Positions 1 through 59,301 of a DNA stretch of 64,000 nucleotides are shown in pieces; position 1 is the stretch's first letter; every line of letters begins with the position of its first letter. The notes beneath the pieces were generated by a model, which was not told the DNA's origin, did not search any database, and saw only the letters and a list, made by a program, of their open reading frames with translations. The DNA comes from Alviniconcha marisindica (taxonomy: Eukaryota > Mollusca > Gastropoda > Provannidae): positions 62,001-126,000 of the forward strand of contig JABMCL010003121.1 of NCBI GenBank assembly GCA_018857735.1. Direction: 5' to 3'. A program made the position numbers and the translations under genes.

Positions 1-267
1 GATCCAAACTCTGAATTGTTCGAGGACCTGCTTGACGACGACAGCAACGATGCGTACAAGGACAAAGGGGCTGCAGCAGCTTCCCTTGGCCGCCCGACGA
101 AGGCAGCCAGGGCGACCAACAGCGAGGACCCAGCCCAGCCAATCAGCAGCTGGGAGGAGATGATGGCCAGGAAAGAGGAGGAGGAGGAAGAAGAGGAGGA
201 AGAAGAGGAGGAGGAGTGTGGCTGGGCTTCAGAGATGCCCAGTGTGCAGTATGACCATCTGCATCAG
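1..267 (+). CDS. TRANK1: TRANK1-like exon 1 (partial at window edge)
   Basis: The frame is open from base 1 and gives an 89-residue segment starting [16 protein letters not shown]. It includes [12 protein letters not shown], a run of about 14 glutamates, and then [17 protein letters not shown]. It ends CAG|GTGCAG in phase 0, matching exon 2. The 5' edge of the exon is cut by the window, so no acceptor is visible. The poly-Glu stretch suggests a disordered acidic linker. Confidence 0.8.
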
Positions 268-1456
268 GTGCAGTGTGCTCTTTATTCTCTCTCTCTCTGT
301 ATATATATATGCTCTTAATGAAGTTAAGGTGGGGGGGGGGGGGGGGGTTGGATTGTTTTGCATTTTGTCCAGGTTGGTGTTTTCTGAACCACCCTATGTA
401 ACCAAGTGTGGTTTATGGTGGTGTTCTCTGAACCACCCTTTGTAACCAAGTGTGGTTATGGTGGTGTTTTCTGAACCACCCTTTGTAACCAAGTGTGGTG
501 TATGGTGGTGTTTTCTGAACCACCCTTTGTAACCAAGTGTGGTGTATGTTTTTATTTTATTTTTTTAAACCACCCTTTGTAACCAAGTGTGGTGTATGGT
601 GGTGTGTCATCACAAACCCGAGTGTCTTGCGAAAAGATTAGTTTGCTGTCTTCAAGGTCAGAGTCACACTCAGGGCTTGCTGTTGATGATACTGACCGTT
701 GATGATACTGACTGTTGATGATACTCACTGTTGATGATACTCACTGTTGATGATACTCACTGTTGATGATACTGACTGGCTCTGTGTTGATGGTACTGAC
801 TGACACTGTGTTGATGATATTGACTGTTGATGATACTGACTGACTCTGTGTTGATGACTGACTGACACTGTGTTGATGATACTGACTGACACTGTGTTGG
901 TGATACTGACTGACTCTGTGTTGATGATACTGAATGACACTATGTTAATGATACTGACTGACTCACTGTTGATGATACTGACTGACTCTGTGTTGATGAT
1001 ACTGACTGACACTGTGTTGATGATACTGACCGACTCACTGTTGATGATACTGACTGACTCAGTGTTGATGATACTGACTGACTGTTGGTGATGCTGACTG
1101 ACTGACTGTTGGTGATACTGACTGACTGTTGATGATGCTGACTGACTGACTGTTGGTGATACTGACTGACTCACTGTTGATGATACTGACTGACTGTTGA
1201 TAATGCTGACTGACTCACTGTTGGTGATACTGACTGACTCACTGTTGATGATACTTTCTCACTCTTGATACTGACTGTCTCACTATTGATCCCCTGCCCA
1301 GCTGTTTGTGACCAAGAACCAAGTGCTGTGCAGTGAAGTTCAGAAAAACTTCCGTGAGTTGTGTCATGCTGATGTTGTCGCTGAGCATCACGTGGAGGTA
1401 GAGGAGGCTGCCATGCCACACAGACTGCAGGTAAGATGATGGTAGTGGGGAGAACC

Positions 1457-1541
<85 letters not shown>

Positions 1542-1765: not shown

Positions 1766-1822
<57 letters not shown>

Positions 1823-1836
1823 GTGTGTGTGTGTGG

Positions 1837-1933
<97 letters not shown>

Positions 1934-3891
1934 TCACTTTGAAATGCATCAGAGGCTTTTGGTGTTCAGCACATCCTTGTGGAGTTTCTCTGAAAGAGCC
2001 ATGTTGATTACCTGCCACCATACACCATAGAGAGTGTTCTGCTGTCCAGGACGTGGATGAGTACAAGTTCCCGCTGTTCCTGACGTCACGGCAGCTGATC
2101 CTCATGCTGGACGCCTCGCTGCCCGCTCCGCACTTCTTTGAACGCAATGAGGACGGCAGTCTGAAAGTCATCATTCAGGGCTGGGGTGCTGACGAGGAAA
2201 TCTTTGCCTTTGTCCCACTGGAGGATGACTCAGATGACTCTGATGAGGGGGAATATTTTGAGGATGATGAAGAGGGTGGGTTTTGATAGAAGGGCTTTTG
2301 ACATAGTGTCATGTGACTGATACCACCCAGTCAGTTGGCTTAGTGTTATGTGACAATGATACCACCCAGTCAGTTGGCTTAGTGTTGTGTGACAGTGATA
2401 CCACCCTGTCAGCTGACTTATTGTGTGACAGTGATACCACCCTGTCAGTTGACTTAGTGTTATGTGACAGTGATACCACCCTGTCACTTTGTCAGCTGAC
2501 TTATTGTGTGACAGTGACACCACCCTGTCAGCTGACTTATTGTGTGACAGTGACACCACCCTGTCAGCTGACTTATTGTGTGACAGTGATACCACCCTGC
2601 CAGATGATTTAGTGTCATGTGACAGTGGTACGACCCTGCCAGTTGGCTTAGTGTCATGTGACAGTGGTACGACCCTGCCAGTTGGCTTAGTGTCATGTAC
2701 AGTGGTACGACCCTGCCAGTTGGCTTAGTGTCATGTGACAGTGGTACGACCCTGCCAGTTGGCTTAGTGTCATGTGACAGTGGTACGACCCTGCCAGTGT
2801 GACAGTGGTACGACCCTGCCAGTTGGCTTAGTGTCATGTGACAGTGGTACGACCCTGCCAGTTGGCTTAGTGTACGACCCTGTCAGTTGAACTGATGTTG
2901 TGTGACAGGGTGGAGAGACGGAGGGGGGTTGTGGGGGTGACAGCTGTGAACACACTGTAGTGCTGATGTTGGAGGGGGATGGGGGGAAGGTGGCAGGGCA
3001 TGATAACTGTAAACATGTGTATGTGCAGGTTAGGTGGTGAAGGTTTGATAGCTGTGGACACACTGTAGTGTTGATTTGGTGGGGGAAGGGGCAGGGCATA
3101 ACTGTAAACACATGTATGTGCAGTGAAGTGGGACAGGTTTGATAGCTGTGGACACATACACCTGCATGAGGTGGTGGTGAAGGTTGACTGAACACCTGTA
3201 TCTGCAGTGAGAGGAGACAGGGGAAGGGTTTGATAGCTGACTGAACACCTACTGGTAGGAAAGAAAGGGGAGGGTTTGAAAGCTGACTGAACACCTACCG
3301 GTAGGAAATAAAGAGCATAGGTTTAATAGCTGACTGAACATCTATCGGTAGGAAAGAATAGGAAGGTCTAATAGCTGACTGAACACCTACCGGTAGGAAA
3401 GAAGAGGAAGGTCTGATAGCTGACTGAACACCTACCAGTAGGAAAGAAAAAGGTCTGATAGCTGACTGAACACCTATCAGTAGGAAAGAAGGAGAAGGTC
3501 TGATAGCTGACTGAACACCTACGGGTAGGAAAGAAGGAGAAGGTCTGATAGCTGACTGAACACCTGTGCCGGCAGGTGAGCGGAGAGAGAGAGAGGAGCA
3601 GGCTGCAGCCGATCGCCACCCAAAGAAGAAGGACATCCGGCGAGAGGTCACCTATGACGTCTTTGCACACGAGATCTGGCCCAAGATCACCAAGAAGGCA
3701 CAGGTACCTCAGCTTCCGTTTGGTGCTTGCTGTGTTGTTGTTGTTTGAGGTTTTGGGTGGGTTATTTTGCTTTTCTTTTTCTTTCCTGTTCATGTGTTTG
3801 TGGGTTTTTCTTTCATGGGTATTTTCAAATGCAGATACAGACTGACAGACATGCGCACCCACGCACACTCTCTCTCTCTCTCTCTCTCTCG

Positions 3892-3926: not shown

Positions 3927-6151
3927 TCTCGCTCTCTCTCACACACACACACACAGGTTTACCAGCCCCTTTGGCGTAGCAGTTAGCAGTTTGGAATTGT
4001 GTGTGTGTCAGAATGCCGAAGGTTAAAATCCCATGACTTGCAGTATGTTTTAGCCTTGACAGTCTTCGTCCCAGAGCTGGTAGTGCAGTGGGTCTAGTGG
4101 GTAGTGCAGTGGCCTGGTGGGTAGTGCAGTGGGCCTAGTGGGTAGTGCAGTGGCCTGGTGGGTAGTGCAGTGGGCCTAGTGGGTAGTGCAGTGGGCCTAG
4201 TGGGAAGTGCAGTGGGCCTAGTGGGAAGTGCAGTGGGCCTAGTGGGAGTGCAGTGGGCCTAGTTGGTAGTGCGGTGGGCCAAGTGGGTAGTGCAGTGGGC
4301 CTAGTGGATATGCAGTGGGCCTAGTGGGTAGTGCAGTAGGCCAGTGGGTAGTGCAGTGGGCCTAGTGGGAATTGCAGTGGGCCTAGTGGGTAGTGCAGTG
4401 GGCCAAGTGGGTAGTGCAGTGGGCCTAGTGGGAGTGCAGTGGGCCTAGTGGGTAGTGCAGTGGGCCTAGTGGGTAGTGCAGTGGGCCTAGTGGGAATGCA
4501 GTGGGCCTAGTGGGTAGCAGTGGGCCAGACATGCAGTGGGCCTAGTGGGTAGTGCAGTGGGCCAAGTGGGTAGTGCAGTGGGCCTGGTGGGTAGTGCAGT
4601 GGGCCTAAGTGGGTAGTGCAGTGGGCCAAGTGGGTAGTGACAGTGGGCCTAGTGGGTAGTGCAGTGGGCCTAGTGGGAAGTGCAGTGGGCCTAGTGGGTA
4701 GTGCAGTGGGCCAAGTGGGTAGTGCAGTGGGCCTGGTGGGTAGTGCAGTGGGCCTAGTGGGAATTGCAGTGGGCCAAGTGGGAAGTGCAGTGGGCCTAGT
4801 GGATATTCAGTGGGCCTAGTGGGAAGTGCAGTGGGCCTAGTGGGTAATACAATGGGCCTAGTGGGTAGTGCAATTGGCCTAATTGGTAGTGCAGTGGGCC
4901 TGGTGGGTAGTGCAATGGGCCAAGTGGGTAGTGCAGTGGGCCAAGTGGGTAGTACAGTAGGCCTAGTGGGAGGTGCAGTGAGCCTAGTGGGAGGTGCAGT
5001 GGGCCTAGTGGGTAGTGCAGTGGGCCTAGTGGGTAGTGCAGTGGGCCTAGTAGGGTAGTGCAGTGGGCCTAGTGGGAAGTGCAGTGGGCCTAGTGGGTAG
5101 CCTGGGGCCATGAAGCCAAGCTTTGCCCATTTCATGGATCCCCTGTCTTCTGTGTTTGTGTAGTGTGAAGGTGAGATGTCACCTGTTTTGTCTGTGGACC
5201 AGGTCTGTGTTTGTGTGGTGTGCAGTTGATAGCTCTCCAGTTGTATCTGTGGACCAGGACTGTGTTTGTTTAGTGTGTAGGTGTGCTGTCACCTGTCTCG
5301 TCTGTTGTATCTGTGTGCAGCTGAGCTGTCAGCCGTCCCGTGTGTGTAATGTGTAATGTAATGTGCAGGTGATTATCTACTCACAGATAGCTCACCTGTC
5401 TTGTGTGTGGACCAGGTCTGTGTTTGTGAAGTGTGCAGGTGAGCTGTCAGCTGTCATCTCTGTGGACCAGGTCTGTGTGTGGTGTGGTGTGCAGGTGAGC
5501 TTTCACCTGTCATGTCTGTGAACCAGGTCTATGTTTGTCTTGCATGCAGGTAAGCTGTTGCCTGTCACCTGTCTTGCCTGGGGACCAGGTGTGTCTGTGT
5601 CATGTGCAGGTGAGCTGTTGCCTGTCTTGCCTGTGGACCAGGTGTGTTTTTGTGTCATGTGCAGGTGAGCTGTTGCCTGTCACCCGTCATGCCTGGGGAC
5701 CAGGTGTGTCTTTGTGTCATGTGCAGGTGAGCTGTTGCCTGTGGATCAGGTGTGTTTTTGTGTCAGGTGCAGGTGAGCTGTTGCCTGTCTTGCCTGTGGA
5801 CCAGGTGTGTTTTTGTGTCATGTGCAGGTGAGCTGTTGCCTGTCTTGCCTGTGGACCAGGTGTGTCTTTGTGTCATGTGCAGGTGAGCTGTTGCCTGTCA
5901 CCTGTCTTGTCTGTGGACCAGGTGTGTCTTTGTGTCATGTGCAGGTGAACTACCACCCCTCCCTGGTGTGGACGGAGATCATGTCGTTCATCAAGGGATC
6001 TTTCGCTGCTCTGAGTCAGCGGCGCGGCTTTCTGGACAAGGACAGCTATGAGCAGCTCGGTCGCAAGCAGGCACCCAACTTCACAGGCAGCAGAGATAAG
6101 GTGTGTGTTGCTGCCCTTCTGTGCATTCATGCAGGCACACGTGTGTGTGTG

Positions 6152-6505: not shown

Positions 6506-9500
6506 ATACATAGGTGTGTGTATTATGTCATGTCTTTGTGTGTGTGATTCTGAAGTAACGGTTGCTATTTGCTGGGGATTAAAAATTAAGCATGTGTGTA
6601 TGTACGTCCTGGTGCATCAGTCAGGTAACAGATCTAGGTCACAAGCTATTACTCTTAGGTGTGCACCTGTAATGTTTAACATTATGTGGAGCCTGCTTGA
6701 AATGGGATTGGTTGGATCTAATACATGAGATTTCTGTCCCAGGTGTACGAGCTGTTCCTCAGGTACAGTGACTACAAGCGACAGCATGGTCTCTACGATG
6801 AAGCCGACTTGGTCTTCCACATCTACCAGCGTCTGAAACTGGCTGGCCCTCTGCCTTGGGTCCTGCATGAGGTCTGTCTCTGTCCCTGTGTCTGTCCCTC
6901 TGTTTCTGTCCCCGTCTGTCTCTTTGTCCATGTGCCTTGGGTCCTGCATGAGGTCTGTCTCTGTCCCTGTGTCTGTCCCTTGGTTTCTGTCCCCATCTGT
7001 CTCTTTGTCCCTGTGCCTTGGGTCCTGCATGAGGTCTGTCCGTCTGTCTCTGTCCCTGTATCTGTCCCTCTGTTTCAGTCCCCCTCTGTTTCTTTGTCTG
7101 TCCATGTGTTCTGGGTCCTGCATGAGGTCGGATCTCCGTCCTTGTGTATGTCCCTCTGTTATGTTACCCCTCTGTTTGTCTCTTTGTCTGTCCTTGTGTT
7201 TGTCCCTCTGTTATGTTTCCCCTCTGTCTGTCTCTTTGTCTGTCTGCCCAGATACTTGGGGTCCTGCATGAGGTTTATCTGTCTCTCTCAGTCCCTCTGC
7301 CTGTCCTTCTGTTTCATTTCCTCTCTGTCTGTCTGTCCGTCCATGTGCCTTGGGTCATGCATGAAGTCTGTTCATCTGTCTGACACCATGTGTCTGTTGC
7401 CTGTCTGTTCATCTGTCTGACACCATGTGTCTGTCCCTCTGTTTCGTTCCCTCTCTGTCTGTCTGTCTGTCTGCCTGCCTGCCTGCCTGCCTGCCTGTCT
7501 GTCTGTCGTATGCCTTCGGTCCTGTATGAGATCTTTTCATCTGTGACACCCTGTGTCTGTCCCTCTGTTTCTGTCCCCCTCTGTCCTCATTGTCTTGTCT
7601 GTCCATGTGCCTGTGTCCTGTCTGTAATATGTCTGTCCATCAGTTTGTTTGACATGTCCATCTGTCTGTCCATCAACCTTGGGTCCTGCATGACGTTTGC
7701 GTGTTTGTCCCCCTGTCTCAGCTGTCTGCCCATCTGTTCTACCGTCCTTCTGTCCAACATTCTGTCCCTCTGTCTGTCTGTCCAACTGTCTTTTTATCAG
7801 ACTGTCTTTCCAGGTGTTTGTAGATGCTGCGTCCTTGTCTGTTCATGTCACACTTCTTCCAGGTGTTTGTGGACACTGTCATTGTCTGTGTTACATTGTT
7901 TCCAGGTGTTTGTAGACACTGTCATTCTCTGTGTCGCACACTTTCCAGGTGTTTGTGGACACTGTGTCATTGTCTGTGTTACATTGTTTCCAGGTGTTTG
8001 TGGACACTGTGTTACATTGTTTCCAGGTGTTTGTAGACACTGTCATTCTCTGTGTCGCACAGTTTCCAGGTGTTTGTGGACACTGTCATTGTCTGTGTTA
8101 CATTGTTTCCAGGTGTTTGTAGACACTGTCATTCTCTGTGTCGCACAGTTTCCAGGTGTTTGTGGACACTGTCATTGTGTGTTACATTGTTTCCAGGTGT
8201 TTGTAGACACTGTCATTCTCTGTGTCGCACAGTTTCCAGGTGTTTGTGGACACTGTGTCATTGTCTGTGTTACATTGGTTCCAGGTGTTTGTGGACACTG
8301 TGTTACATTGTTTCCAGGTGTTTGTAGACACTGTCATTCTCTGTGTCACACAGTTTCCAGGTGTTTGTGGACACTATGTCATTCTCTGTGTCGCACACTT
8401 TCCAGGTGTTTGTGGACACTGTGTCATTGTCTGTGTTACACAGTTTCCAGGTGTTTGTGGACACTATGTCATTCTCTGTTTTCACACTTTTACAGGTGTT
8501 TGTGACACAGTCATTCTCTGTGTCGCGCGGGCTTTCCAGGTGTTTGTGGACATTTGTCATTCTCTGTGTCGCACTGTTTCCAGGTGTTAGTGGACACTTT
8601 CAGTGTTGTGTCGCACATTTCCAGGTGTTTGGGGGACACTTTGTGATTGTCTGTTAAGTGTTACACAGTTTCCAGGTGTTTGTGGACACTGTGTCATTGC
8701 TTGTTTACACTGTGTTACACTGTTTTCAGTCATTGTGGATGAGACGCAGGACTTTACTCAAGCAGAGCTGGAAACTGTCATTGTCCGTGTTGCACTGTCT
8801 CCAGGTGTTAGTAGACACTTTCAGTGTTAGTGTCGCACTATTTCCAGGTGTTGGGTGACACTTTGTGATTGTCTGTTAGTGTCGCACTATGTCCAGGTGT
8901 AAGGTGACATTTTATCATTGTCTATCACACTGTCTCCAGGTGTTTGTGGATGAGACGCAGGACTTCACTCAGGCAGAGCTGACTATTCTGATCCGCCTGG
9001 CGCACAACCCCAACGACATGTTCCTGACGGGCGACACGGCGCAGAGCATCATGCGCGGAGTCTCGTTCCGCTTCAGTGACCTCAAGACCCTCTTCCACTA
9101 CGCCAAGCAGTCGCTGAAAGCCCGTGGCAAGACGGGCGTGCTGGAGGTGGGTGGGGCTTGTATTTTAACACACTTGAGCAGTGCACAGGGCCACAGATGA
9201 CCCGGATTTCTGTGAGGCCAGATCCCATTTGTCATTGTGTCACAGCGTTTGAAAGTACACATGAGACATACGAGGTGCTGTAACCCAGAAGTCATGCTGT
9301 TTGAAATGACCTGTGCAGCTGTGTACCCCTCTGCAGAACTCGCCCTTTTCCCTTCTGTTTTTAAAGCTGCTATGCTGAATGGACAAAAAAAGGGAGTCAC
9401 ATGAACACAACAAAACCTGAATGGCATTTGGTCATTCTCACCTGGCAAAAATAAATACAAGGTACATAAACTCCACCGAAAAGGCACATCTGCAAACTTG

Positions 9501-12500
9501 GAGTTTTGCTGAACTGTATTGTGTACCAGCTGACCCATATGCTGAACTGTGTTAGAGCTTTGTTGTGCTGATTCAGGTCCCCAGGCAAGTGTACCAGCTG
9601 ACCCATAACTACCGCTCCCACGCCGGCATCCTGTCCCTTGCCTCTGCCATCCTGGACCTGCTGGTGGAGTTTTTCCCGGAGTCGTTTGACCGTCTGGAGA
9701 AGGACCAGGGGATGTTTGACGGGCCGCCGCCCGTCGTGCTGGAATCGGGCAGTGCTGCTGATCTGGCCATTCTGCTGAGTGGCAACAAGCGCAAGACGTC
9801 ACACATAGAATTTGGGGCGCATCAGGTGGGGTCTGTGTGTCAGTGTGTGTGTGTGTAAGGAGACTCTGTGTGTGTGTATGACTCTGTGTGTGTGTGTGTG
9901 AGAGAGAGAGAGTGTGTGTGTGTATGACTGTGTGTGTGTGTGTAAGACACTCTGTGTATGTGTATGACTGTGTGTGTGTGAGAGAGAGAGTGTGTGTGTG
10001 TGTGAGAAAGAGAGTGACTGTGTTGTACAGTGTTTGTGATTATGTGTGCTGTGTCACTGTGTGGTGTGGGTGGAGGGGCTGTGACCATTTGTGTCGTGTG
10101 TGTGGGTGTTTGGGGTGGGTGTTGCTGTCATTGTGTGTGTGCGTGGTTTGTCACTGTGTACTGCATGTGTGGGGGTGGGGGTAGATCTGTGTGTTCATGT
10201 GTGTGTGTGTGTGCGTGCATATAAATGGTGTGCACGCATGTCTGTTCATGTGTGTATATGCACACACATATATGCATGCTTTGGTGTGATTGAGTACGTG
10301 TTTGTGCTGTGTGATCTTGCATGAAAGCTTGAAGTGGAAACTTGTCAACATACAAGTACTTCATTTTGCTTTCATTCTATCTACTTGTACCTGACCTTGT
10401 GGCCAGGTGATCCTGGTGGTGAACGACGAGGCGCGCAACAACCTGCCTGAAGAGCTGGGGCTGGGCCTGGTGCTGACCATCTACGAGGCCAAAGGTCTGG
10501 AGTTTGACGACGTCCTCCTCTACAACTTCTTCAAGGATTCAGAGGTGAGAGTTTGATGATGTCCTCCTCTACAATTCAGAGGTCAGAGTTTGATGATGTC
10601 CTCTACAGTTCAGAGGTCAGAGTTTAACGACGTCCTCCTGTACAACTTCTTCAAGGATTCAGAGGTGAGAGTTTGACGATGTCCTCCTGTACAACTTCTT
10701 CAAGGATTCAGAGGTGAGAGTTTGATGATGTCCTCCTCTACAACTTCTTCAAAGATTCAGAGGTGAGAGTTTGATGATGTCCTCAACAGTTCAGAGGTCA
10801 GAGTTTAACGACGTCCTCCTGTACAACTTCTTCAAGGATTCAGAGGTGAGAGTTTGACAATGTCCTCCTCTACAACTTCTTCTGGGATTAGAGGTGAGAG
10901 TTTGATGAAATCTTCCTCTACAATTAAGAGGTGAGAGTTTGGTGAAGTCCTCCTCTACAATTAAGAGGTGAGAGTTTGGTGAAATCCTCCTCTACAACTT
11001 TTTCAAGGATTCAGAGGTGAGAGTTTGGTCTGTGGAGCCCTTGAATGGGGATATAGCTGCTGACTCACTCCCCCATGCAGCGAAGGAGTTTTCTCCCATA
11101 GTCCTTTTTCAGTGCAGACTCTCTTAAACCTTATGTGCAATCACATGGACAAACGTCTGTGCACGCTTTAAAAACCGAAGCATTAGCAGCTGTAGGCTGT
11201 ACCATTGCCTTAAGACGTTTCCCTTTACCAAACATTAGACCTGCAGTGTTTTCCGCTCTGTACTGTTGTCCTCCACCGTAAGCCTTCTGTTCATTATCTG
11301 TTTAAATTGTTTGTAAACTGTGTATAGTGTACTGTTGTCCTCCACCGTAAGCCTTCTGTTCATTATCTGTTTAAATTGTTTGTAAACTGTGTATAGTGTA
11401 CTGTTGTCCTCCACCGTAAGCCTCCTGTTCATTATCTGTTTAAATTGTTTGTAAACTGTGTATAGTGTACTTGTGTGTGTGAGGTGCCTATGTGTGTGTG
11501 TGTGTCTGTGTGCATGCGCGTGCATGCGTGTGTGTGTCCATGCTGAGAATGGTCTTGCTGGGCATGATTTGGCGCTTGTTAAGTTCTGTAGTTATTATTG
11601 CTTGTCTCCCTGTGCAGGCGTCCAAGGAATGGCGTGTGGTGACAGACTTCCTGGAGCGGCTGTCCAAGAATGAGGCCAGCACCACCAACTCCAGCGGACT
11701 TGTGCAGATTGATGAAGGTCACCAGCATGCTCTCAGTGTTTCTGTCCAGTGTCTGTTCTCTGTTTCTGCCATCTGTTTTCTGCTGAGGTTATCAGTGTGT
11801 TTTTGTCATCAGTTTTCTGTTGAAGTTATCAGTGTCTGTTCTATGTGTCTGCCATCTGTTTTCCGTTGAAGTTATCAATGTCTGTTTTATGTTTCTGTCA
11901 TCTGTTTTCTGTTGAAGTCATCAGTGTCTGTTCTCTGTTTCTGCCATTGTTTTCATTTCACTGGTGTCTGTTCCATTTTTCTGCTGTATATTGTTTGTGA
12001 CTGTGTCTGTTCAGTGTTTCTGCCCTCTATTTTTTTTCTTCACCTGTGTCTGTTGCATATTTTTGCCAAATGTTGTCTGTTTGCCAGTGTTTTTATCATC
12101 TGTTTTCTCTTTATTGGTGTCCGTTTCATATTTCTGCTGTATGTTGTTTGTTACTGTGTCTGTCCATTGCTATCTGTTTTCACTTTGCAAGTGTGTTCCA
12201 TGTTTCTGCCATCTGTTGTCTGTCACCAACGTCTGTCCAGTGTTTCTGTCATCTGTTTTCTCTTTACCGCTGTCTGTTCCATGTTTCTGCCCTGTATTTC
12301 TGTTACAGTGTGTGCCCAGGTTTCTGCCCTGTTTTCTGTTACCAATGTCTACCCAATGTTTTTGTCATGTTGTTATTTCTGTTCAGTTCTGCGTATGTTT
12401 TAAAGAAAAAAGAGAAATTGCTTCCTTTTGTGCCCCACCTGACTTTTTCCCCAGGCCAAATTAAAACAGCAAGAAAACTTCGCTCTGATTGTTGCAATTT

Positions 12501-31200: not shown

Positions 31201-34200
31201 ATACTGGAATGGTTCAAGGTAAGACACAGTGGACTGGACTGGTTCAAGGTAAGAGACAAGTGGACTGGACTGGTTCAAGGTAAAGAACACAGTGGACTGG
31301 ACTGGTTCAAGGTAAGACACAGTGGACTGGACTGGTTCAAGGTAATTGACACACAGTGGACTGGACTGGTTCAAGGTAGAGATACGTGGACTGGACTGGT
31401 TCAAGGTAAGACACCAGTGGACTGGACTGGTTCAAGGTAAGAGATCACATGGACTGGACTGGTTCAAGGTAAGACACAGTGGACTGGACTGGTTCAAGGT
31501 AAGACACACAGTGGACTGGACTGGTTCAAGGTAAGACAGATGCGTGGGACTGGACTGAATCTCAATGGTAATTAGAGGACCACAGTGACTGGACTGGGTG
31601 TAAGGTAAGAGTACAGGGATGGATGTTGCAAGGTAAGAACACATGCGAATCGGACTGGTTCAAGGTAATTAGACCACAGTGGACGGATGGTTCAAGGTAA
31701 GAAGATACAGTGGACTTGGCTGGTTCAAGTGTAAGACACACAGTATGACTACTGGTTCAGTGTAAGTACACATTACTGGTACGGTTCAGGTAAGACAAAG
31801 TGACTGGACTGGTTCAAGCAAAGACACAAGTGGACATGGACTGGTTCAAGGTAAGAGACAGTGGACTGGACTGGTTCAAGGTGAACACAGTGGACTGGAC
31901 TGGTTAAGGTAAGAATACATATGGACTGGACTGGTTCAAGGTAAGAGATACAGTGGACTGGACTGGTTCAAGGTAAGACACACAGTGGACTGGACTGTCA
32001 AGGAAGAGACAGTGGACGGACTGGTCAAGGTATAACACACAGTTATACAGTACGGTCAAGTAAAGACAACAGTAACTAGGGATGGTTCAAGGTAGCATGA
32101 CATGGATGGTTCAGGTAAGAGACAGTGGACAGGTCACTGTTCAAGGTAAGACAACGTCGGATGGATGAGGTTAGATTTGAGTGAGACACAGGGACTGGAC
32201 TGTTTTTCAGGTAGAGACAGGGACTGGACTGGTGTCAAGGTAAGACATCACAGTGGACTGGACTGGTCAAGTGAGACACACATGGACTGACTGGTACAAC
32301 GTAAAGAATAGTGACTGAGACGGTTCAAGGTAAGACCACGTGGACTGGACGTAAGGTAGGATCAGGGACTGGACTGGTTCAGGTAAAACACAGTTGACTG
32401 GGCAGTATACTGGAATGTGCAAGGTATAGAACATGGACTGGTGGTCAAGGTAGAATCACGTGGACTGGACTGGTTCAAGGTAATAGACACAGTACTGGTA
32501 CTGGCAGGTAAGACACGTATACTAACATGGTTCAAGGTAAGAACAGTGGACTGGACTGGTTCAAGGTAAGAGACAATGGACTGGACTGGTTCAAGGTAAT
32601 TAGACACACATGTGGACGGACTGTTCAAGGTGAGCACAATGGACTGGACTGGTTCAAGGTAATTAGCAACAGGGACTGGACTAGTTCAGGTAAGACACAC
32701 AGTGGACTGGACTGGTTCAGGTAGAGATACAGTGGACTGGACTGGTTCAAGGTAAGACAACAGTGGACTGGACTGGTTCAAGGTAAGCACACAGTGGACT
32801 GGACTGGTTCAAGGTAAGACACAGTTACTGGACTGGTTCAAGGTAAGACACACAGTATACTGTACTGGTTCAAGGTAAGACACAGTATACTGGAATGGTT
32901 CAAGGTAAGACACAATGGACTGGACTGGTTCAAGGTAAGAGACAAGTGGACTGGACTGGTTCAAGGTAATTAGACACACAGTGGACTGGACTGGTTCAAG
33001 GTGAGACACAGTGGACTGGACTGGTTCAAGGTGAGACACAGTGGACTGGACTGGTTCAAGGTAAGAGACAAATGGACTGGACTGGTTCAAGGTGAGACAC
33101 AGTGGACTGGACTGGTTCAAGGTAAGAGACAAATGGACTGGACTGGTTCAAGTACATCACTGACAGCCTCCCAGCCTTGCTGTGAGGAGGGAAAGAAATC
33201 ACTCACTGCAGCTGATGTGTCTTCAGAGTTGTTGCCAGAAGTGAACCACCGTAGCCGTAGCCGCTGAGGGTAGAGGGTGGGGTAAGGGGTGCTGGTGTTG
33301 GCAGGTTGAAAAATGCAGAAGTCACACTTGGAAAGGAATGTTGGTGACCTTGTGGTGACAGAATAGCCCGTCTTTCAGGTCAGTGTTTTGTCTGTGTTGA
33401 TTTGTTCGCCTCACACTGATCACCGTCATGATCAGTTATCAGTGAAGTATCACCCTTCTGTCCGTGTCAGGACAAGAAGAAACCATCACCCACAAAGACC
33501 AGCAAGAAGAAAAGCAGCGAGTTGCCTTCGTCGGATGAAGATGACGATGCGGATGGATCTGACCGTAACACTGAACAGCAGGTAATTGTGTAATAATAAT
33601 GTATTTCTGTAGCCCTAAGCCTTGTTCAGAGGGACTGTTCTAAGTGCATACTCGCATACTAGAGACTTTACACAATTTACAACCAACAACAGACAACAAA
33701 CGGGGATGGAAGGTAGCAGCATGGAGTGGAAAACATGGCAGGTCTACTGTTTTGGAAAAATACAAATTTTGAGGTTAGATTTGAATGAGTCAAGAGAGGG
33801 TTTCTTCGGAGAGGAAGGTGAAGGTCATTCCATGTAGAGGGGACAGAGATGGAGAAAAAAAAATGCTGGAACCAACAGCGGAAAGTCTAGTATGAGGGGT
33901 GTCTTTGTGTGATAATGTAGATTGGGACATTGTATGGCTAACCTGTAGTGGCAAATAATGGACTGTTGGAAAATGATGACAGGTAGTCAGCAACAGGTTA
34001 ACTGTTGTAGCAGATAATGGGACTTTTGGAATGATCACGACAGAGGTAGTCAGCAACAGGTTAACTGTTGTGGCAGATAATGGGACTACTGGAAAATCAT
34101 GACAGAGGTAGACAGCAACAGGTTAACTGTTGTGGCAGATAATATCATGACAGAGGTAGTCAGCAACAGGTTAACTGTTGTGGCAGATAATGGGACTGCT

Positions 34201-34888
34201 GGAAAATCATAACAGAGGTAGTTGGCAACAGGTTAAATGTTGTGGCAGATAATGGCACTGTTGGAGAATCATATGTCAGAGGTAGTTGGCAACAGGTTAA
34301 CTGTTGTGGCAGATAACGGGCCTGTTGAAAAATCAAGGCAGAGGTAGTCAGCAACAGGTTAACTGTTGTGGCAGATAACGGGACTGTTGAAAAATCAAGG
34401 CAGAGGTAGTCAGCAACAGGTTAACTGTTGTGGCAGATAATGGAACTGTTGGAATGATTACAACAGGATTAATCAGAGGACTAACAACTGTGGCACATGG
34501 TGAAATTGTTGGCAAGATCATGACAGGGGTAGTCAGCAACGGTTTGCCTTTTGCTGCAGGTGGTGGAGCTGTTGGAGCGGGCGCGGCAGCAGTTTGACCT
34601 GTGCAAGGACTACAGCGGGATGGGGGACTGTCAGCTGCTCCTGGCCCGACTCCGCCTGGACAAGGAGCTTCTGGAGGCGGCGTTCAGCAGTTTCCACACC
34701 GCACAGCCCGTCCCCAACACCGCAGGCATGCTGGAGTGTGTGGAGGTGAGCAGAGTTGCTCATTCCTCAACGCTATAATCGGAAGCAGAATGAGGCCTAG
34801 AGCACTCATGTAGCATCAAAAAACGAGGGATGTCTGTTTCTAAACTGTCTTTGTCACAACTGTGCCTATTTCCCATCTGACACCTGCA

Positions 34889-35695: not shown

Positions 35696-37614
35696 AATAG
35701 GATAGCTTGAAGAGGTGATATTTCAAAGGTGCTGTAAGAGATATATGAGTGTGTTTGATGACCTGACTTTGCAAGGGAGACTGTTCCAGACAGACAGTGC
35801 AGCATAAAAACAAGATCTCTGACCAAACAAGCGCATATATATCTTTTTCTTATGCTGCACTGGGAAGCCAAGGAATGGAAATAAATTATCAGAAGAGCTT
35901 AGCTGGGAGGTTGGCTAGTAAACTGTCCGGAGTTCACTCAAGTAGACAGGTGTGGTCGAGCTGAGGCAGTTGTGGCACAAAGAGGCAAGTTTGTACTGTA
36001 TTCGTGAATACTTGGTTTTCGAGAGCAGGTGCTTTTAGTTTTACTCTGTATGCCTTTCTGTCCATGATAGGGTCTTGTTAACAGAGATGCCAGCTATTAC
36101 AGTCTGACCAGGGTGTTGATTATACCTGTGTGGTTCAGGTGCTGCATAAAATTGTACCTGTGTGGATCAGGTGCTGCATAGGATTGTACCTGTGTGGTTC
36201 AGGTGCTGCATAAGATTGTACCTGTGTGGTTCAGGTGCTGCATAAATTGTACCTGTGTGGTCAGGTGCTGCATAGATTGTACCTGGTGGTTCAGGTGCTG
36301 CCTAAGATTGTACCTGTGTGGTTCAGGTGCTGCATAAGATTGTACCCGTGTGGTTCAGGTGCTGCATAAGATTGTACCTGTTGCGTGGTTCAGGTGCTGC
36401 ATAGATTGTACCTGTGTGGTTCAGGTGCTGCATAAGATTGTACCTGTGTGGTTCAGGTGCTGCATAAGATTGTACCTGTGTGGTTCATCTTTTTTTTGTT
36501 CAGGTGCTGCATAAAATTGTACCTGTGTGGTTCAGGTGCTGCATAAGATTGTACCTGTGTGGTTCAGGTGCTGCATAAGATTGTACCTTCGTGTGGTTCA
36601 GGTGCTGCATAAGATTGTACCTGTGTGGTTCAGGTGCTGCATAAGATTGTACCTGTGTGGTTCAGGTGCTGCATAAGATTGTACCTGTGTGGTTCAGGTG
36701 CTGCATAAGATTGTACCTGTGTGGTTCAGGTGCTGCATGAGATTGTACCTGTGTGATTCAGGTGCTGCATAAGATTGTACCTGTGTGGTTCAGGTGCTGC
36801 ATAAGATTGTACCTGTGTGGTTCAGGTGCAGCATAAAATTGTACCTGTGTGGTTCAGGTGCTGCATAAAATTGTACCTGTGTGGTTCAGGTGCTGCATAA
36901 GATTGTACCCGTGTGGTTCAGGTGCTGCATAAGATTGTACCTGTGTGGTTCAGGTGCTGCATAAGATTGTACCTGTGTGGTTCAGGTGCTGCATAAAATT
37001 GTACCTGTGTGGTTCAGGTGCTGCATAAGATTGTACCTGTGTGGTTCAGATGCTGCATAAGATTGTACCTGTGTGGTTCAGGTGCTGCATAAGATTGTAC
37101 CTGTGTGGTTCAGGTGCTGCATAAGATCAAGACTAGCAGCAAGCTGGATGATCTGAGCTGCCGGCAGCTGATCTGGGGTGTCGAGAGAGTGTTTGACGTT
37201 GTGCGCGTCCTGCTGCACCAGGCCACAGCAGAGGAGAAGAACCAGTACCAGGTGTACCTGATGTTCTACGGGCTGGAGACATCGGGCGAGGGCAAGCTGG
37301 TGCTGCATCCCAAGCTGAAGCCGCGCTGCGTGCAAATGATCGGCGCCAAGAACCTGTTTACCACCAAGGTTTGTGGTTGGCTGTCATGTGGAGCTTGTGG
37401 GTGACCTGTGTTGTGGTTTCACTGTGCAGTGCTGCGGCAGCTGTATACTCAATTGAATTCAGTTCAGTGACACTTTTGTTACTCCCTCAAAGGGCAACAG
37501 TGTGCATATGTGTGTGTGGTGTGTGTGTATGTTGGTGTGTTGGTGTGTGTAGTGTGGGTTTGTGTGTGTGTGGGTGGGTGGGTGGTTGTATGGTGTCTGT
37601 GTGTTTAGCTACAT

Positions 37615-40388: not shown

Positions 40389-43300
40389 ATGCATGTGTGT
40401 GTGTGTGTCATGTGTGTGTATACATTTGAATTCATTGTGTTGATGGTATGTGCTTTACGTAAAATACATATTAGTTAATTGTTTTGATGGTACTCGGGCT
40501 TGATGAGCATGGATAGAATTACATATTTAGGTTAATATGGTCTGTTTGTTTGAGCTTTCAGGGCATTGATGAGCAAGGAAAAATGCCTACCTATGAATTC
40601 ATTATTGAGTTTTGCTTGTAGAAGTTTATGATTTGACCCCTTTTAGAGTATAGCATCATTTACCTGTGAGAAATGAATATTCTCTACCTCATGTAGCAAC
40701 ACACAGGTGCTGTTTTGACCCCTTGTAGCAAAGTCATGACATCTTGACCCCTTGTAAGCTTAATAACATCTTGACCCCTTGTAGCAATGAATGCATCTTG
40801 ACCCTTGTAGCAACATATTGACCTTCCTTGTAGCTGTAACTAGCATCTTGACCCCTTGTAGCAACTAATGACATCTTGACCCCTTGTAGCAACTGTAATG
40901 ACATCTTGACCCCTTGTAGCAACTGTAATGACATCTTGACCCCTTGTAGCAACTAATGACATCTTGACCCCTTGTAGCAACTAATGACATCTTGACCCCC
41001 TTGTAGCAACTAATGACATCTTGACCCCCTTGTAGCAACTAATGACATCTTGACCCCCTTGTAGCAACTATTGACATCTTGACCCCCTTGTAGCAACTAA
41101 TGACATCTTGACCCCCTTGTAGCAACTATTGACATCTTGACCCCCTTGTAGCATTACCTAATTGACATCTTGACCCCCTTGTAGCAACTATTGACATCTT
41201 GACCCCCTTGTAGCAACTAATGACATCTTGACCCCCTTGTAGCAACTAATGACATCTTGAACTTTAGTTGTATCAGCTAAAGACATCTTGACCCTTTGTG
41301 TCAAGTAATGACCCTTGTGAATCCAGTGTTTGGCAAACAGACTGAGATATGATTGTTTAACCAATGACAGAAGAGAAGTAGTCTGGGTGTTGTTGTTGTT
41401 GATCACTTTTATATAGCACTGTTCTCCGCTCTCGAGCAGACTCACTGTGCTCGCATGTGATTCTACGTGAGTGAATAACTTTTTATAGCGTGTTTTTGAA
41501 TATCCACCAAAGTGGTGTACATACGGTGCTGGCATGGCTGGTGCCACATGAAACTGTTGCCGTCTTGGCACGTTCTTCTGTAGTGTTATTCTGTAGTGTT
41601 GTTCAGGGAAGAAAGAACTCTTCCGTTTCCACAAACATTGGTAGTCAGCTGACACAGCTGCTTGCAGGAATTGCACTATTTGCATAATTAATAATTAGGT
41701 CAAGATGTATACCTGTTTTTGATCTCTACCATTGTTTGATGCCGTCTGTTTTTTGCTGCACAGGATCACTCTGACCGAGCCATCACCGTTCTGTCCAGAC
41801 GCGTTCGCCTGGATTGCGCCATTCAGACGGGTGCTGAGGCGTTGCTGAAGGTTGACGTCATGCTGTCGGAACTGACCATGTCGCTGGCCCAGCAAGAACA
41901 GATGTGGAACTCTGTGGAAACCTTGCTGGAGTTCATTTTCCCCTCAGGGCTTTTAACCTACAACATGTCCTCCGTGCTTGGCTTCTGTCTGAGATGTTGC
42001 GAGGAAGAGTCCGTCGAATAAGGGAGTTCACATGCAGGTCAGAGTTGGGTTGTTGATGCTGTCTTTTCCTCAGCTTCTTCTTGGGTGTGTGTGTTTGTGT
42101 TTGTGCATGGGGGTGTGCGAGTGAACATGCGTGCATGCATGCATGTTTGTGTGTGTGTTTGTGTGTGTGTGTGAGCATGCATGTGTGCGCTTGTGTATGT
42201 GTGTTTGTGTGTTTCTCAGTGGTGGGTGGGTGTGCGTGCGTGCATGCGTGTGTGTGTGTCTGCATGTGTCTGCACATGTCTATATGTGTGCAGAAGTTCA
42301 GCCATTGGTTTCATCTTGCTGATCAAATAATTATAGGCTGGAACCCTCTGGACACTTGGTGTTTGACAGGTATTATGTAAAGAGATGTTCACAGGTGCAG
42401 AGATACCTGCAGTACCTGTGGGACAACCAGGTCATGTGGGCAAAGGGAAGTCCCCCAGTGGGTTCAGAACCTGATGTGTAGAGGTGTTGACAGGTGCAGA
42501 GATACCTGCAGTACCTGTGGGACACCCAGGTCATGTGGGCAAGGGGAAGTCCCCCAGTGGGTTCAGAACCTGATGTGTAGAGGTGTTGACAGGTGCAGAG
42601 ATACCTGCTGTACCTGTGGGACAACCCAGGTCGTGTAGGCAAGTGTTCGGTACCTGATGTGTGGAGGTGTTCACAGGTGCAGAGACACCTGCAGTACCTG
42701 TGGGACAACCCAGGTCATGTGGGCAAGGGGAAGTCCCCCAGTGTGTTCAGAACCTGATGTGTAGAGGTGTTGACAGGTGCAGAGATACCTGCTTACTGTG
42801 GGACAACCTAGGCAAGGTGCTGGGAAGGTGTTTGAGTACCTGCATTGCCCTGTAGAAGGTCGATTTGACAGGTCAGAGATACCTGCAGGGACCTGTGGGA
42901 GGGAAGTCCCCAGGTCAGTGTGGGCAAGGCGGAACCTCGGACCAAGTTGTGGGTTTCGACAGGAGCGGTGCAAGTCCACTGTAAACGGGTTGTGTGGCGT
43001 CTTACCTGGTGGCCCTCTTCAAACCCCCTGGTCACCTATTTAAGGTGCAACAAGTACCTGGACCTTAAGTTTCTTCGGGGGGGGGGGGGGGCGAGCCTTG
43101 AAACCCTCGAATGCGTCTAGTCTGGGTGAAGTTATCTACCTCTTTGAGACCATTTAAGTGTAGTCAGCCATTACAAACGGGGAATGTTGCATTGTGATTC
43201 GTGGCTGCAGCTGTGGGGGTGTGAGACTGAGATCAGCCAATGATGGTGGGCAGGTTAAATGACAACTGTGTGTGGGTGTGTGTGACTGTGCTGATGTGAA

Positions 43301-52400: not shown

Positions 52401-55400
52401 TAGGCTGGGTCCATGTGATGGGGTGTTCACAGGGTAGGCTGTGTCATGGGGTGTTCACAGGGTAGGCTGGGTCCATGTGATGGGGTGTTCACAGGGTAGG
52501 TTGGGTCCATGTGATGGGATGTTCTCAGGGTGTGAGGCCTATGCGTAACACATGAGTGTGCATGTTGACTTTACCATCCCTGGTCCTGAGGTGACCCTGG
52601 GTGGCTGATGGAATGTTAAAGTCCAAGAACTGTCTAAGCTTCCCAGAGGGGAGTGGGGGCAGGGGGTGGGTGGGGGTGGGAGGGAGAGGATGGAAAAAAT
52701 TCTCAAGTTCTACAGGACCTGACACTTACCCTTCCTGATGTTTAAATAGAGATATTGTAGATGATATTCAGTCGGTGTGTGTGTGATGGGGGGGCAGCAT
52801 TCTGCTTTTCAACGTATCTGATGTGTGTGTGGTGTGCGTGTGTGTGTGGGGGTGGTGGTGATGGTGTGTGTGTGTATGTATGTGTGTGTATGGTGTGTGG
52901 TGTGTGTGTGCGTGTGTGGGGTATGTGTGACGGTGTGTGTGTGTGCGTGTGTGTGTGTGTGTGCGTGCGCATGCGTGTGTGCCCTTCTGTGTGCATGCAT
53001 GCGTGTGTTGTGTGTGTGTGTGTGTGTGTGTCTGCGTGCATGCGTGCGTGCCCTTGTGTGTGCGTGCATGCGTGTGTGTGTGTGTGCAGACCCTGGCCTC
53101 CATTCTGTGTGGTGGGAGGTTGTCGTCATCCAGGTTCTGCTTGCTGACCCACCTGGCCCACCTGGACAAGAGGAAGTCCACCACGCACCTGCTGACTGAG
53201 CGCACCCTCATTCTGGCCCTGACCTTGCTTATGAACGTGGAGCAGAACAACGTGCCTGATGTCTGTGAGATCTTCATCCTACGATGTGTGCACAAAATCA
53301 ACGAGAGCAAGGTGAGTGACTGTGTGCTTCTTTGTTAATGTGTTGTGTGTGTGTGTGTGCATGTGGTTTTTTTTTGGGGGGGAGGGGGTCTTTGTGGGAT
53401 GGGGGTGTACTTGTGTATGCGTGTGTTTCTGTGTTGGTACGTTTGTATGTCTGTATGCTATTGTGTGTCAGTGTGTTTATGTGCCACTGTATGTGTGTAC
53501 GGCCTTTGTATACCATTGTCATTGTTGTGTGTGTGCGTGGCTGACTAACTGGCTTGTAACTCAGTAACCTGTGTGTAACCCTGTAACCTGTATGTAACCC
53601 TGTAACCTGTATGTAACCCGTATGTAACCCTGTAACCTGTTTGTAACCATGTAAACTGTGTGTAAACCTGTAACATGTGCTGTGTATAACCATGTAAGTT
53701 GTGCACAGTCCTGTAACATGTTTGTAACCATGCAGCATGTGTAACCTTGTAACCTGTGTGTAACTCTGTAACATGTGGATAACCCTGTAACCTGTGCTGT
53801 TTAACCCTATAACCTGTGCTGTGTAACGATGTAACCTGTGCTGTGTAACCTTGTAACATGTGTGTAACCTGCGTGTGTGTGTGCATGTGCAGATGCAGGA
53901 TATGCCACCACGCCTGGCGATGCTGATCGACCAGGTGCAGCGCTCCATGTCCTATCAGCACATTTATGAGGCTCTGAGCATTGCACTGGGTGAAATGAGC
54001 GACCGCGCGCAGTTTTACCAGTGGCGTTGGAACAAGCGGGAAAGGGACGGCTTGATGCCAGTGGGCTTGGCCAACGTGCGCGCAGGCGGACCATTCCGGC
54101 GTTTCCGACCAGACGGCCACATGCAGGGCATGGCCGGCTATGGAGAAGAAGTGGTTGGAGGCTTTGATGAGATTGACGAGGAGATTGATGATGGTCCAGA
54201 GAGCGGAGAGGTGGAAGAGGTAAATATTCTGGGGTTGGTGAGATGGATGTTCCAGTGAGCAGAGATTTAGATAAATACATCAGGAGGGTTTGGTGAGATG
54301 GATGTTCCAGTGAGCAGAGATGGAAGAGATAAATACATCAGGGGGGGTTTGGGTGAGATGGATGTTCCAGTGAGCAGAGAGGAAAAAAAATCATCGGGGG
54401 GTTTTGGTGAGATTGATGATGACCCCTGGGGGTAAAAAGATTTTTGGTGTGTTGAAGCCCAAAATGTTTTTTTTTTTGTTAACACCACCTGGAATGTGGC
54501 TGGTTTTTTGGTTTTGACTGCACCTGATGGGCGGGTTTTTTGTGTTGACAGCACCTGATGTGGCTTTTTGTTTGTGTTATTCCCCCCAAATGTGGCGGGT
54601 TTTGTGTTGACAGCACCTGATGTGGCTGGTTGTTTGTGTTGACTGCACCTGATGGGGCGGGTTTGTTTTGTTTGACTGCCCAATTTGGCTGGTTTTTTGG
54701 TTTGCGGCACCTGATGTGGCTGGGTTGTTTGTGTTGACGGCACCTGGTGGTTTGGTTTTTTGTTTGACGCACCTGATGTGGCTGGTTTTTTTGTGTTGAC
54801 TGCACCTGATGTGGCTGGTTGTGTTGACACCCACCGGGAGGGTGGGCGGTTGTGTTTTGACAGCCCTGAGGGTGGCTGGTTGTGTTGCCCAGCACCTATG
54901 TCGGGTTTGTGTTGACAGGATGTGGTTGGTTGTGTTGACAGCACCTGATGTGGCTGGTTTTTGGGGGACTGCACCTGATGTGGCTGGTTGTGTGTGTTGA
55001 CTGCACCTGATGTGGCTGGTTGTTTGGGGGTGATGTGGCTGGTTTGTGTTTTGGGCTGCACCGGGATGTGGCTGGTTGTTTGTGTTGACTGCACCTGATG
55101 TGTGGTTTTTTTGTGTTGGCGGCACCTGATGTGTGTGTTTTTTGTGTTGACAGCCCCCGGGTTTGTTTTTCCATTGTTAAAAGCCCCCAATGTGGGGTTT
55201 TTTGTGTTGACGGCCCCCCCAAGTGTGTGTTTCATGTGTTTGGCAGCACCTGATGTTGGTTTTTTTTGTTGACGGACCTGATGTGTGTTTTTCCATGTGT
55301 TGACGGCCCCCTGATGGTTTTTTGTGTTTTGGGAACAGCACCTGATGTGTGTGTTTCATGTGTTGACAGCACCTGATGGGGTTTTTTGTTTGACGCCCCG

Positions 55401-58400
55401 TTTTTTCATGGTTGCCCCTAAAGGGGTTTTTTGTTTTGGTGTTGTTTTTCTTTTTGACTTTTCCTGATGTGATTTTTTTCCCTTTGTTGCCCAGCACCTG
55501 ATTTTTTTTTCTCTGTGTTGACAGAACCTGATGTGATTGTTTATGTTGATAGCACCTGATGTGGTTGTTTGTGTTGCCCAGCACCTAATGTGGTTGTTTG
55601 TGTTGACCCCACCTGATGGGGTTTTGGTTTGTGTTGATAGCCCTGATGTTTTTGGGGTTGAAGCCCCCGTTGGGTTGTTTGTGTTTGACAGCACCTGATG
55701 TTTTTTTTGTTTTTTGGACAGCCCAAAACCCAGCCCCCGGGTTTTTTTTTGTGTTTTCCCTTGATGGATGGGGTTTTTTTTGGTTTAAGAGTTTTATGTG
55801 ACTGGTTATTTTTGTTGACAGTAGCTGTGACTGGTTATTTTTGTTAACAGTAGCTGATGTGACTGGTTATATTTGTTGACAGTAGCTGATGTGACGGGTT
55901 ATTTTTGTTGACAGTAGCTGATGTGACTGGTTATTTTTGCTGACAGTAGCTGATATGACTGGTTATTTTTGTTGACAGTAGCTGATGTGACTGGTTATTT
56001 TTGCTGACAGTAGCTGATGTGACGGGGGTTTTTGTGTCAACAGGGGGAATCAGTACGGAAGAGCTGATGGACTTGTTTTTGTCAACAGGAGGAGGTCAGT
56101 GCCGAAGACAAGGTGCGCTTCCAACAGCAGGTGATGGGGGCCCCAGACACAAACTGAGCAAAATAAAGCTGCACATGTTCTTCTGAAATTCTTCCGCTCC
56201 ATAATTTTCAAGAAGCGTTTGAAGAGGCTAGTGTTTAACTGCTTTGTGCAGATTGAACGCGAACTGTTTTCCCCCTTCGTGATCACGGAGAGGATGTGTG
56301 GTGTTTGTGGTGTAAGTTTTGAGAAGGCCTCTGTACCTCCGAAGGCACCCCCTTCAGCAGAGGGAGAGAAGGCAACGGATGAAGAGCAGGAGGAGGAAGA
56401 AGAGGAGGAGGAAGAAGAAGTGGTAGTGGCCAGATTGAAGCAGGCTCACCTAACCTCTGAGGAGCATCGAGTTACGGACGCCAACTTCCGTATTTTCCGT
56501 GAAGTGTACCGCAACATTATCATGCAGCCTCTGGTTGAAATTGGCGCCTTCCTGTCCAAGTATGAGGTAAAGTGGCAGTGGCTTCCATTGGCTTTGAAAG
56601 TGAACCATGTTTAGCAGGTGAAAGTGAACCATGTTTACCAGAGCAGGTGAAAGTGAACCATGTTTAGCAGGTGAAAGTGAACCTGTTTAGCCGGTGAAAG
56701 TGAACCATGTTTACCAGAGCAGGTGAAAGTGAACCATGTTTAGCAGGTGAAAGTGAACCTGTTTAGCCGGTGAAAGTGAACCATGTTTACCAGAGCAGGT
56801 GAAAGTGAACAGTGTTTAGCAGGTGAAAGTGAACCACGTTTAGCAGGTGCAGGTGAAAGTGAACAATGTTTAGCAGGTGAAAGTGAACCATGTTTAGCAG
56901 GTGAAAGTGAACCCGTTTAGCTGGTGAAAGTGAACCATGTTTAGCAGAGCAGGTGAAAGCGAACCATGTTTAGCAGGTGAAAGTGAACTGTGTTTAGCAG
57001 GTGAAAGTGAACCATGTTTAGCAGAGCAGGTGAAAGTGAACCATGTTTAGCAGGTGAAAGTGAACTGTGTTCTGTGTTTGCAGGTGAAGAAGCGGAAGGA
57101 TACCTGGTACAAGGGTCTGGAGTTCCAGGTGACAGGTGTCCTGCAGAAGATTGAGAATCTGCAGCAGCAGCTCAGCCTGGCCATCCAAGGTCGCAAGTGG
57201 ACGGAGTGTGCAAGACTCATCATGCTGAGAGATGACCTGGCCAAGTTCTTCCAGGAGCATGTCCGCAATCCGGTGTCTAGCACTTACAACGCCCAGCAGG
57301 TGGCTAGTGTTGATATCAAGTACAGTATGTTAACAGCAGTCAATGTGACAGTGGAGGGGGAAAGAAAAAAACGGGGGTGGGGGGAACAGGGCTGGCTGCT
57401 ACTGTGCTAGTGTTTTAAAACAAGATTTGGATCTCTTTTTTTTTATGTGTTTATTTTCTTGTTGGATATACAAGAATAATGTATTTCCCAACTGAGAAAA
57501 ACACAAAATGAGCAGAAACTTTTATTTGGTGTTTAATATTGATTTTTAAATTTGCATACATAAATCATTTGACACAGTTACTTCCCTTCACATGGGATTT
57601 CGTAGAGAAAGGGCAGCAGCTTGTTTGGGGCTAGGTGGGTTAACTGTTGTTTTGTGGCTTGAAAAAAGGGCTTACCTGGGAAATTTTATTTTTTTTGTGT
57701 TGTTCTGTTAAATTAGGGTTCTTTTTCAACAGTTTATGTGTGTGGATAGGTGACAGTGACACCAGTCATCTTGCTTTGCACATTTACCTCAGTCGTACAT
57801 GTCGCATGACACTGACAGATTGTTTTTACTTATATTTGTTCAGTGGTTGAGGCTGGATTGCTTTTACTTGTTAAACTGGTTGAGGGGGCTGGATTGCTCT
57901 TACTTGTTCACTGGTTGAGGCTGGATTGCTCTTACTTGTTAAACTGGTTGAGGGGGCTGGATTGCTCTTACTTGTTCACTGGTTGAGGCTGGATTGTTTT
58001 TTTTATTTGGGGGGTTTCCATTTGGTTTGAGGCTGGATTGTTTTTTTTATTTGGGGGGTTTCCATTTGGGTTGAGGCTGGATTGTTTTTCTTGTTCACTG
58101 GTTGAAGTTTTGGGGAATTTGTTCTTACTTGTTCACTGGTTGAGGCTGGATTGTTCTTACTTGTTCAGTGATTGAGGCTGGTTAAGGCCTGTTCCCCATA
58201 CCAGTTGGTAGACAACACACGTGCTGCTATCACTCACTGATGGTTGTTTTTGTTGATCACTTTTATATAGCGCTATTCTCTGCTCTCGAGCAGACTCGCT
58301 GCGCTCTTGTCGCACGTCATTCTGTAGCTGTGGCTGGTGACTGTAGCCTTTCTGGCGCACTTTGAATATCCACAGATGTGGTGTACTTACACTCAGTGTA

Positions 58401-59301: not shown

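Follow-up and report, generated by a model that had tools for sequence, protein, structure and literature searches.

Tandem arrays of splice junctions in the introns of a TRANK1-like gene of the snail Alviniconcha marisindica and their likeness to amphioxus mirages

A stretch of 64000 nucleotides from the genome of Alviniconcha marisindica (the window; contig C2555, GenBank JABMCL010003121.1, positions 62001–126000, from an assembly of 2806 contigs totalling 818 Mb) raises the question of whether the minisatellites in its introns are truly built on splice junctions and, if so, whether this is a peculiarity of one gene. The original prediction held that at least ten introns carry arrays whose units contain the neighbouring exon edge or the splice site itself, that these arrays grew outward from AG|GT sites and that no such gene-wide pattern had been described. 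As judged by sequence similarity, the window contains the greater part of a TRANK1-like gene, for which we built an exon model by combining a dynamic-programming gene finder with tblastn searches, exon by exon, using a Littorina saxatilis protein (P0001), the best of the 120 protein matches listed, with 77% identity over 66% of the query. An AATAAA polyadenylation signal lies at 59296. Six exon pieces of the gene gave no Pfam match, and exon 17 (28882–29001) gave a weak UBA-like match with an E value of 0.008, which is below Pfam's cut-off. Array units were mistaken for exons by the gene finder, which should serve as a warning for gene prediction.

Each junction was represented by a 24-bp template (12 exon and 12 intron bases), for which scores were obtained in the intron that it came from and in 30 further introns, a pass being a score of at least 11 that was also better than in every other intron. 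Ten of the 62 junctions passed, namely the acceptors of exons 4, 5, 7, 20, 27 and 30 and the donors of exons 6, 9, 15 and 29; an eleventh pass, at the donor of exon 23, was rejected as an artefact, this exon having been placed on the first unit of its own array. The acceptor of exon 31 tied with another intron and that of exon 19 failed (Table 1). Because any array adjoining an exon will trivially contain copies of the intron edge, we added an exon-side-only test, in which the exon bases following each copy of the intron edge were compared, with the edges of other exons as the control; 29 of 60 junctions had such a copy to score. Exon sharing was strong at six junctions (the acceptors of exons 5, 7, 19 and 20 and the donors of exons 6 and 9), moderate at the acceptors of exons 27, 30 and 31 and weak at the acceptor of exon 4 and the donor of exon 15, and the donor of exon 29 was not separated from other exons. 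Arrays or copies that adjoin the acceptors of exons 21, 28 and 32 and the donors of exons 8, 11 and 25 did so without exon sharing in this test, and these candidates were rejected. These data clearly show that tandem arrays of splice junctions in the introns of the TRANK1-like gene are real, and that in several of them the unit carries the exon edge with the copies lying on the intron side, as had been claimed.

Table 1. Coordinates of the gene and its arrays in the window, with copies and best scores in the 24-bp junction test (highest score in other introns in parentheses)
Feature	Position	Strand	Exon edge	Unit and extent	Junction copies	Best score
TRANK1-like gene (TPR and ankyrin repeat-containing protein 1)	1..59300	+		about 32 exons in the window, which opens inside an exon		
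Array before exon 4	3222..3565	+	first base 3576	exon sharing weak		11 (8)
Exon 5 acceptor-type array	5149..5962	+	first base 5945	unit approx. 55 bp	8	14 (11)
Exon 6 donor-type array	6852..7129	+	last base 6871	unit approx. 81 bp	7	perfect, 24/24
Exon 7 acceptor-type array	7806..8923	+	first base 8940	unit approx. 43 bp	23	18 (11)
Exon 9 donor-type array	10500..11027	+	last base 10544	49-bp unit, mostly exon sequence	11	perfect, 24/24
Array after exon 15	26443..27251	+	last base 26440	unit with few exon bases	11	
Interior array, intron after exon 17	29529-33152			approx. 115 units, away from junctions		
Exon 19 acceptor-type array	33943..34454	+	first base 34560	unit approx. 62 bp, diverged		10 (up to 12)
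Exon 20 acceptor-type array	36118..37127	+	first base 37114	32-bp unit	30	
Exon 23 array	42381..42930	+		acceptor and approx. first 60 bp of exon, six recognisable copies		
Array after exon 29 (apparently exon 28 of the original prediction)	54231..54418	+	last base 54219		1	14 (10)
Array and nearby copy before exon 30 (apparently its exon 29)	55796..56088	+	first base 56089		1	15 (9)
Array before exon 31 (apparently its exon 30)	56595..57065	+	first base 57084			12 (12)

Of the twelve cases originally listed, seven proved firm (exons 5, 6, 7, 9, 19, 20 and 23), whereas the remaining five (listed as exons 4, 15, 28, 29 and 30) were moderate or weak. The exon extension at exon 5 beats that of 97% of other exons, and at exon 6 it reaches 18 bp. 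A partial copy of approximately 50 bp of the start of exon 7 lies at approximately 8725–8775 and was seen at the protein level too (tblastn, E value 4.6e-4), and the better units of the exon 9 array each hold 45 bp of that exon. At exon 19 the exon extension lies above that of other exons' edges, and gapped alignments cover 17–30 exon bases. Exon 23 had been taken for a whole-exon array, but its units hold no more of the exon than is given in Table 1, and in this assembly the exon is broken. Among the less certain cases, exon extension ranked 0.10–0.17 at exon 4 and, at exon 15, 0.07 by mean and 0.27 by maximum. One gapped alignment with 39 exon bases was obtained at exon 29, and the array before exon 31, which occupies most of a 517-bp intron, had an exon-side rank of 0.03 and gave no alignment across the junction with 6 bp on either side. 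Exon 27 has junction copies, a single one by the 24-bp test, and no array.

We defined a decoy as an intron site scoring within 0.5 of the true site and matching at least six of the eight exon-edge bases, the splice matrices being generic consensus values. The prediction that real exons are surrounded by dozens of near-perfect decoys was upheld for a few arrays, with 28 at exon 20 and 14 at exon 7, whereas the others held seven or fewer (7 at exon 9, 4 at exon 5, 2 at exon 6 and 0 at the other seven junctions counted). Five decoy donors at exon 9 differ by 2–6 mismatches over 57 bp and have a score equal to that of the true donor. At exon 20, seven decoys match the true acceptor exactly over 46 bp, and a further 11 deviate from it at a single base. 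Five of the 17 exact 23-base decoys at this exon would add a multiple of three bases, and use of an inner site would therefore usually break the reading frame. If splicing is accurate, the exon 20 and exon 9 junctions offer a natural test of the way in which the spliceosome chooses among identical sites.

A search of the genome with P0001 found diverged copies of the gene. One of these, on contig C1451, matches the window at 87% identity across 331 bp surrounding exon 20, and its exon 20 acceptor is single, whereas the 24-base core occurs 30 times in the window; no further copy of the junction was found in the 621 bp upstream of the C1451 acceptor. This comparison makes it most likely that a single junction gave rise to the exon 20 array after the gene copies parted, although it is possible that the C1451 copy lost its array. 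Exon 23 is intact in the C1451 copy (147 bp), with one degenerate copy upstream, and the contrasts in copy number at exon 20 (30 against 1) and exon 23 (more against fewer) are between diverged gene copies, not alleles. The proposal of regular growth outward from the junction is not supported by the units themselves, the identity of which fell significantly with distance in one of the six arrays tested (the exon 5 acceptor). Between its exons 21 and 22 the C1451 copy also carries a small exon (EGHCEDEGFCPYLHQSYTQ; L014/L015, reverse complement 5396–5452) that was not found in the window. A further copy, on contig C2067, has an array at none of its 12 junctions in the sampled part, which spans approximately exon 4 to exon 11 and in which the exon 9 donor is unresolved and the start of exon 7 uncertain.

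Arrays were called with TRF (period of at least 8 and score of at least 80), which found 43 arrays in the 30 introns of the window, covering 47% of intron bases, 2.5% of exon bases and 43% of the 3′ flank. Elsewhere in the genome the coverage was 5–56% in seven sampled stretches with letters, of 16 chosen by contig number, and 4–48% in stretches with chaperonin genes. As a null model, each array was reduced to a single unit, which was placed randomly and was free to run into exons. Array ends lay within 30 bp of a junction in 17 cases against 11.3 expected (P=0.022), the expectation being 7.0 if arrays are barred from exons; the corresponding values were 14 against 9.5 within 20 bp (P=0.054) and 20 against 14.6 within 50 bp (P=0.042). 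The predicted placement of array ends near junctions finds support in the excess at 30 bp; at 0 bp (4 against 6.0) and 10 bp (6 against 7.7) there was no excess. Random seeding would give 4.3–4.9 junction-spanning arrays of the 43, against approximately seven that are firm and up to 12 in all.

Outside the window we examined 104 junctions of 52 introns, of which 18 lie upstream in the same gene, 22 in two gene copies and 64 in chaperonin genes. The chaperonin exons were gene-finder predictions checked against Pfam matches, five of nine multi-exon loci being used, some in part, and predicted exons L020 57–92 and L019 1380–1413 and one upstream TRANK1 piece were left out of the counts. Nine of the 104 junctions passed the junction test, comprising 5/64 in the chaperonin genes, 4/18 in the upstream part, which belongs to the window's gene and is not an independent gene, and 0/22 in the two gene copies. 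Pooled, 18 array ends lay within 30 bp of a junction against 10.8 expected (P=0.009), none of the subsets being significant alone (8 against 5.7 in the chaperonin genes, P=0.14; 7 against 3.7, P=0.055, and 3 against 1.3, P=0.13, in the others), and nine of 49 arrays spanned a junction against 4.8–5.4 expected (P=0.04–0.07). There is thus a modest excess of junction arrays, with array ends at approximately 1.5–1.7 times a null that uses today's non-array intron length and that old decayed arrays and the LINE sequence in the introns would make too low, on top of a high random rate. The excess in both sets makes a small junction preference beyond plain random seeding possible. The pattern is not specific to one gene, as had been supposed, as arrays are common in the other sampled stretches and the chaperonin genes show junction copies too.

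Nor is it without precedent, contrary to what had been supposed, and the snail arrays are of a kind that has already been named. In amphioxus, tandem copies of intron–exon boundaries, termed mirages, were reported in Adh3 and in the globin genes BflGb6 and BflGb9 (PMC3087553), with PGBD5 added and troponin C cited in a later paper (PMC3902484). Amphioxus mirages and the snail arrays are alike in being minisatellite-like copies of a 5′ or 3′ boundary in which many but not all units hold AG/GT. In the snail, the tandem unit spans the boundary of its own exon at exons 5, 6, 7, 9, 19, 20 and 23, either boundary may be duplicated (the donor at exons 6 and 9 and the acceptor at exons 5, 7, 19 and 20), and AGGT occurs in at least half of the units in ten of the 12 junction arrays. 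Copy number in amphioxus varies between haplotypes (PMC3087553 and PMC3902484). The snail differs in the number of affected junctions, which are many in a single gene and recur in other genes, with up to approximately 30 copies. In amphioxus RT-PCR suggested regular splicing, and a role in intron gain was proposed (PMC3087553), whereas the snail arrays are known here from DNA sequence alone. We found no mirage report for a mollusc in the literature searched, itself a part of published work, and the abalone example in it is an ordinary intron minisatellite (PMC6905558); the term may need to be extended to molluscs.

In our view the arrays are probably mirage-type minisatellites, i.e. duplications straddling exon edges that were tolerated and later expanded into decoy arrays. 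The genome of this snail readily forms tandem arrays, in introns and outside genes, and a duplicated segment would by chance straddle an exon edge, with the extra copies landing towards the intron. A correct mRNA would still be obtained from the outermost splice site, so that the duplication would be tolerated, and slippage or unequal exchange could later expand it. We infer the duplication mechanism, its neutrality, the use of the outermost site and the greater age of the single-copy state. This origin is supported by edge sharing that is confined to an array's own exon, by the many arrays that are free of junctions, by the similar behaviour of other genes and by the single-copy counterpart of exon 20, and array copies at exons 7 and 9 include coding sequence of those exons. 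The strongest parts of the findings as a whole are the exon 20 counterpart, the recurrence in unrelated genes and an apparent small junction preference. The arrays also illustrate the extent to which copies of a genome's own splice sites are tolerated when that genome is rich in minisatellites. A similar idea, tolerance through splicing-out, has been put forward for the dual-specific AGGT repeats of human UBC and VCX3A, which were argued to be less harmful because splicing can remove them (PMC10809524). These repeats share AGGT in their units with the snail arrays, but the units of UBC and VCX3A act both as donor and as acceptor within an intron-bearing coding repeat, whereas the snail units are candidate sites.

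A more ambitious reading, which we regard as possible but rather doubtful, is that junction-spanning minisatellites make up a class found throughout the genome that genuinely favours junctions and that splicing reads only the outermost of up to approximately 30 near-identical sites. With seven decoys at exon 20 identical over so long a stretch, local sequence could not discriminate and the choice would have to rest on position, whether through exon definition, the spacing from the donor or the use of branch points.

The mirage-type origin has to be weighed against the original model, in which duplications start preferentially at AG|GT and junctions thereby seed arrays, a mechanism that we consider improbable. 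It would fit the prevalence of AGGT in the units of the junction arrays and the surplus of array ends lying 30 bp or less from a junction inside and outside the window, and seven of nine acceptor-type cases in the window start with GT, against five of 22 other acceptors (P=0.007). However, a junction-spanning unit is expected to hold AGGT without any seeding, and among the 31 other genic arrays AGGT occurs in at least half of the units in four, no more than in shuffles; their first units contain it five times, against 4.9 in shuffled sequence. Outside the window, two of four donor cases are AG|GT (35 of 52 for all donors) and one of five acceptor cases starts with GT (12 of 52 for all acceptors), which also sets the snail arrays apart from the dual-specific repeats. 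A link between arrays and exons starting with GT, seen in the window at ten of 13 junction exons against two of 18 (P=0.0003), was drawn post hoc and was rejected on the same outside count. Since AGGT is enriched in junction arrays alone, the GT-start link fails outside the window and two of the four outside donors lack AG, the AG|GT in the units of junction arrays most likely reflects their location, and seeding at AG|GT does not stand as a general rule.

It is very unlikely that the arrays serve a function, such as providing ratchet points at which splicing proceeds stepwise, or a place where U1 or another factor could dock. Ratchet points of recursive splicing consist of an adjoining acceptor and donor AG|GT (PMC8605326), and the snail arrays resemble them in this juxtaposition. 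Of 44 AG|GT sites on the sense strand that score fairly both as acceptor and as donor, 38 lie in arrays, against none of six on the other strand. The interior array after exon 17 has in addition 71 strong donor-like sites, 59 of them exactly AAGGTAAGA. A consensus match is, however, not evidence of use, two arrays hold 35 of the 38 sites, good-scoring decoy donors occur in one strict acceptor array only, and the C2067 copy does without junction arrays from approximately exon 4 to exon 11.

The possibility that tandem duplication of AG|GT segments gave rise to these introns and left the arrays behind, a model of intron gain set out for AGGT segments in PMC4974935 and discussed in PMC3087553, appears slimmer still. 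The likeness lies in tandem copies edged by AG|GT, and hemocyanin genes of caenogastropods gained many introns (PMC8599328). Under this model the donor and acceptor contexts of an intron should be homologous, but the two contexts resembled each other no more within an intron than between introns (4.13 against 4.18 over 30 introns), so the suggested relation to intron gain finds no support here. The exons of the C2067 copy, moreover, match the same query ranges of P0001 as those of the window gene while no junction array is present, and the introns, which appear to be common to this diverged copy, therefore look older than the arrays.

Mis-assembly of junction copies from noisy long reads is the least credible of the explanations, as the units are diverged and intron-specific across many genes and contigs and those of exon 20 carry private changes, although copy numbers may still be wrong and the assembly does contain several single-base frameshifts and a broken exon 23. 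The frame breaks, in otherwise conserved exons, lie at 26340–26430, approximately 42000–42038, 42390–43035, 48440–48449 and approximately 56139, mostly at homopolymer runs; together with the broken exon 23 they are probably sequencing errors, the alternative being decay of this gene copy.

The introns of the gene also hold repeats of other kinds. In the intron after exon 12, LINE remnants on the minus strand (18520–22830), with Pfam matches to reverse transcriptase and endonuclease, are followed by a G-rich array at 23170–23740 with a GC skew of 0.83, and short arrays of the inverted motifs TTTTGTC and GACAAAA lie at 43595–43905. On contig C2065 (L016) an N-terminal TRANK1 exon and exon 30 lie within 10 kb of each other, and the intron arrays there match arrays of the window in a different order.
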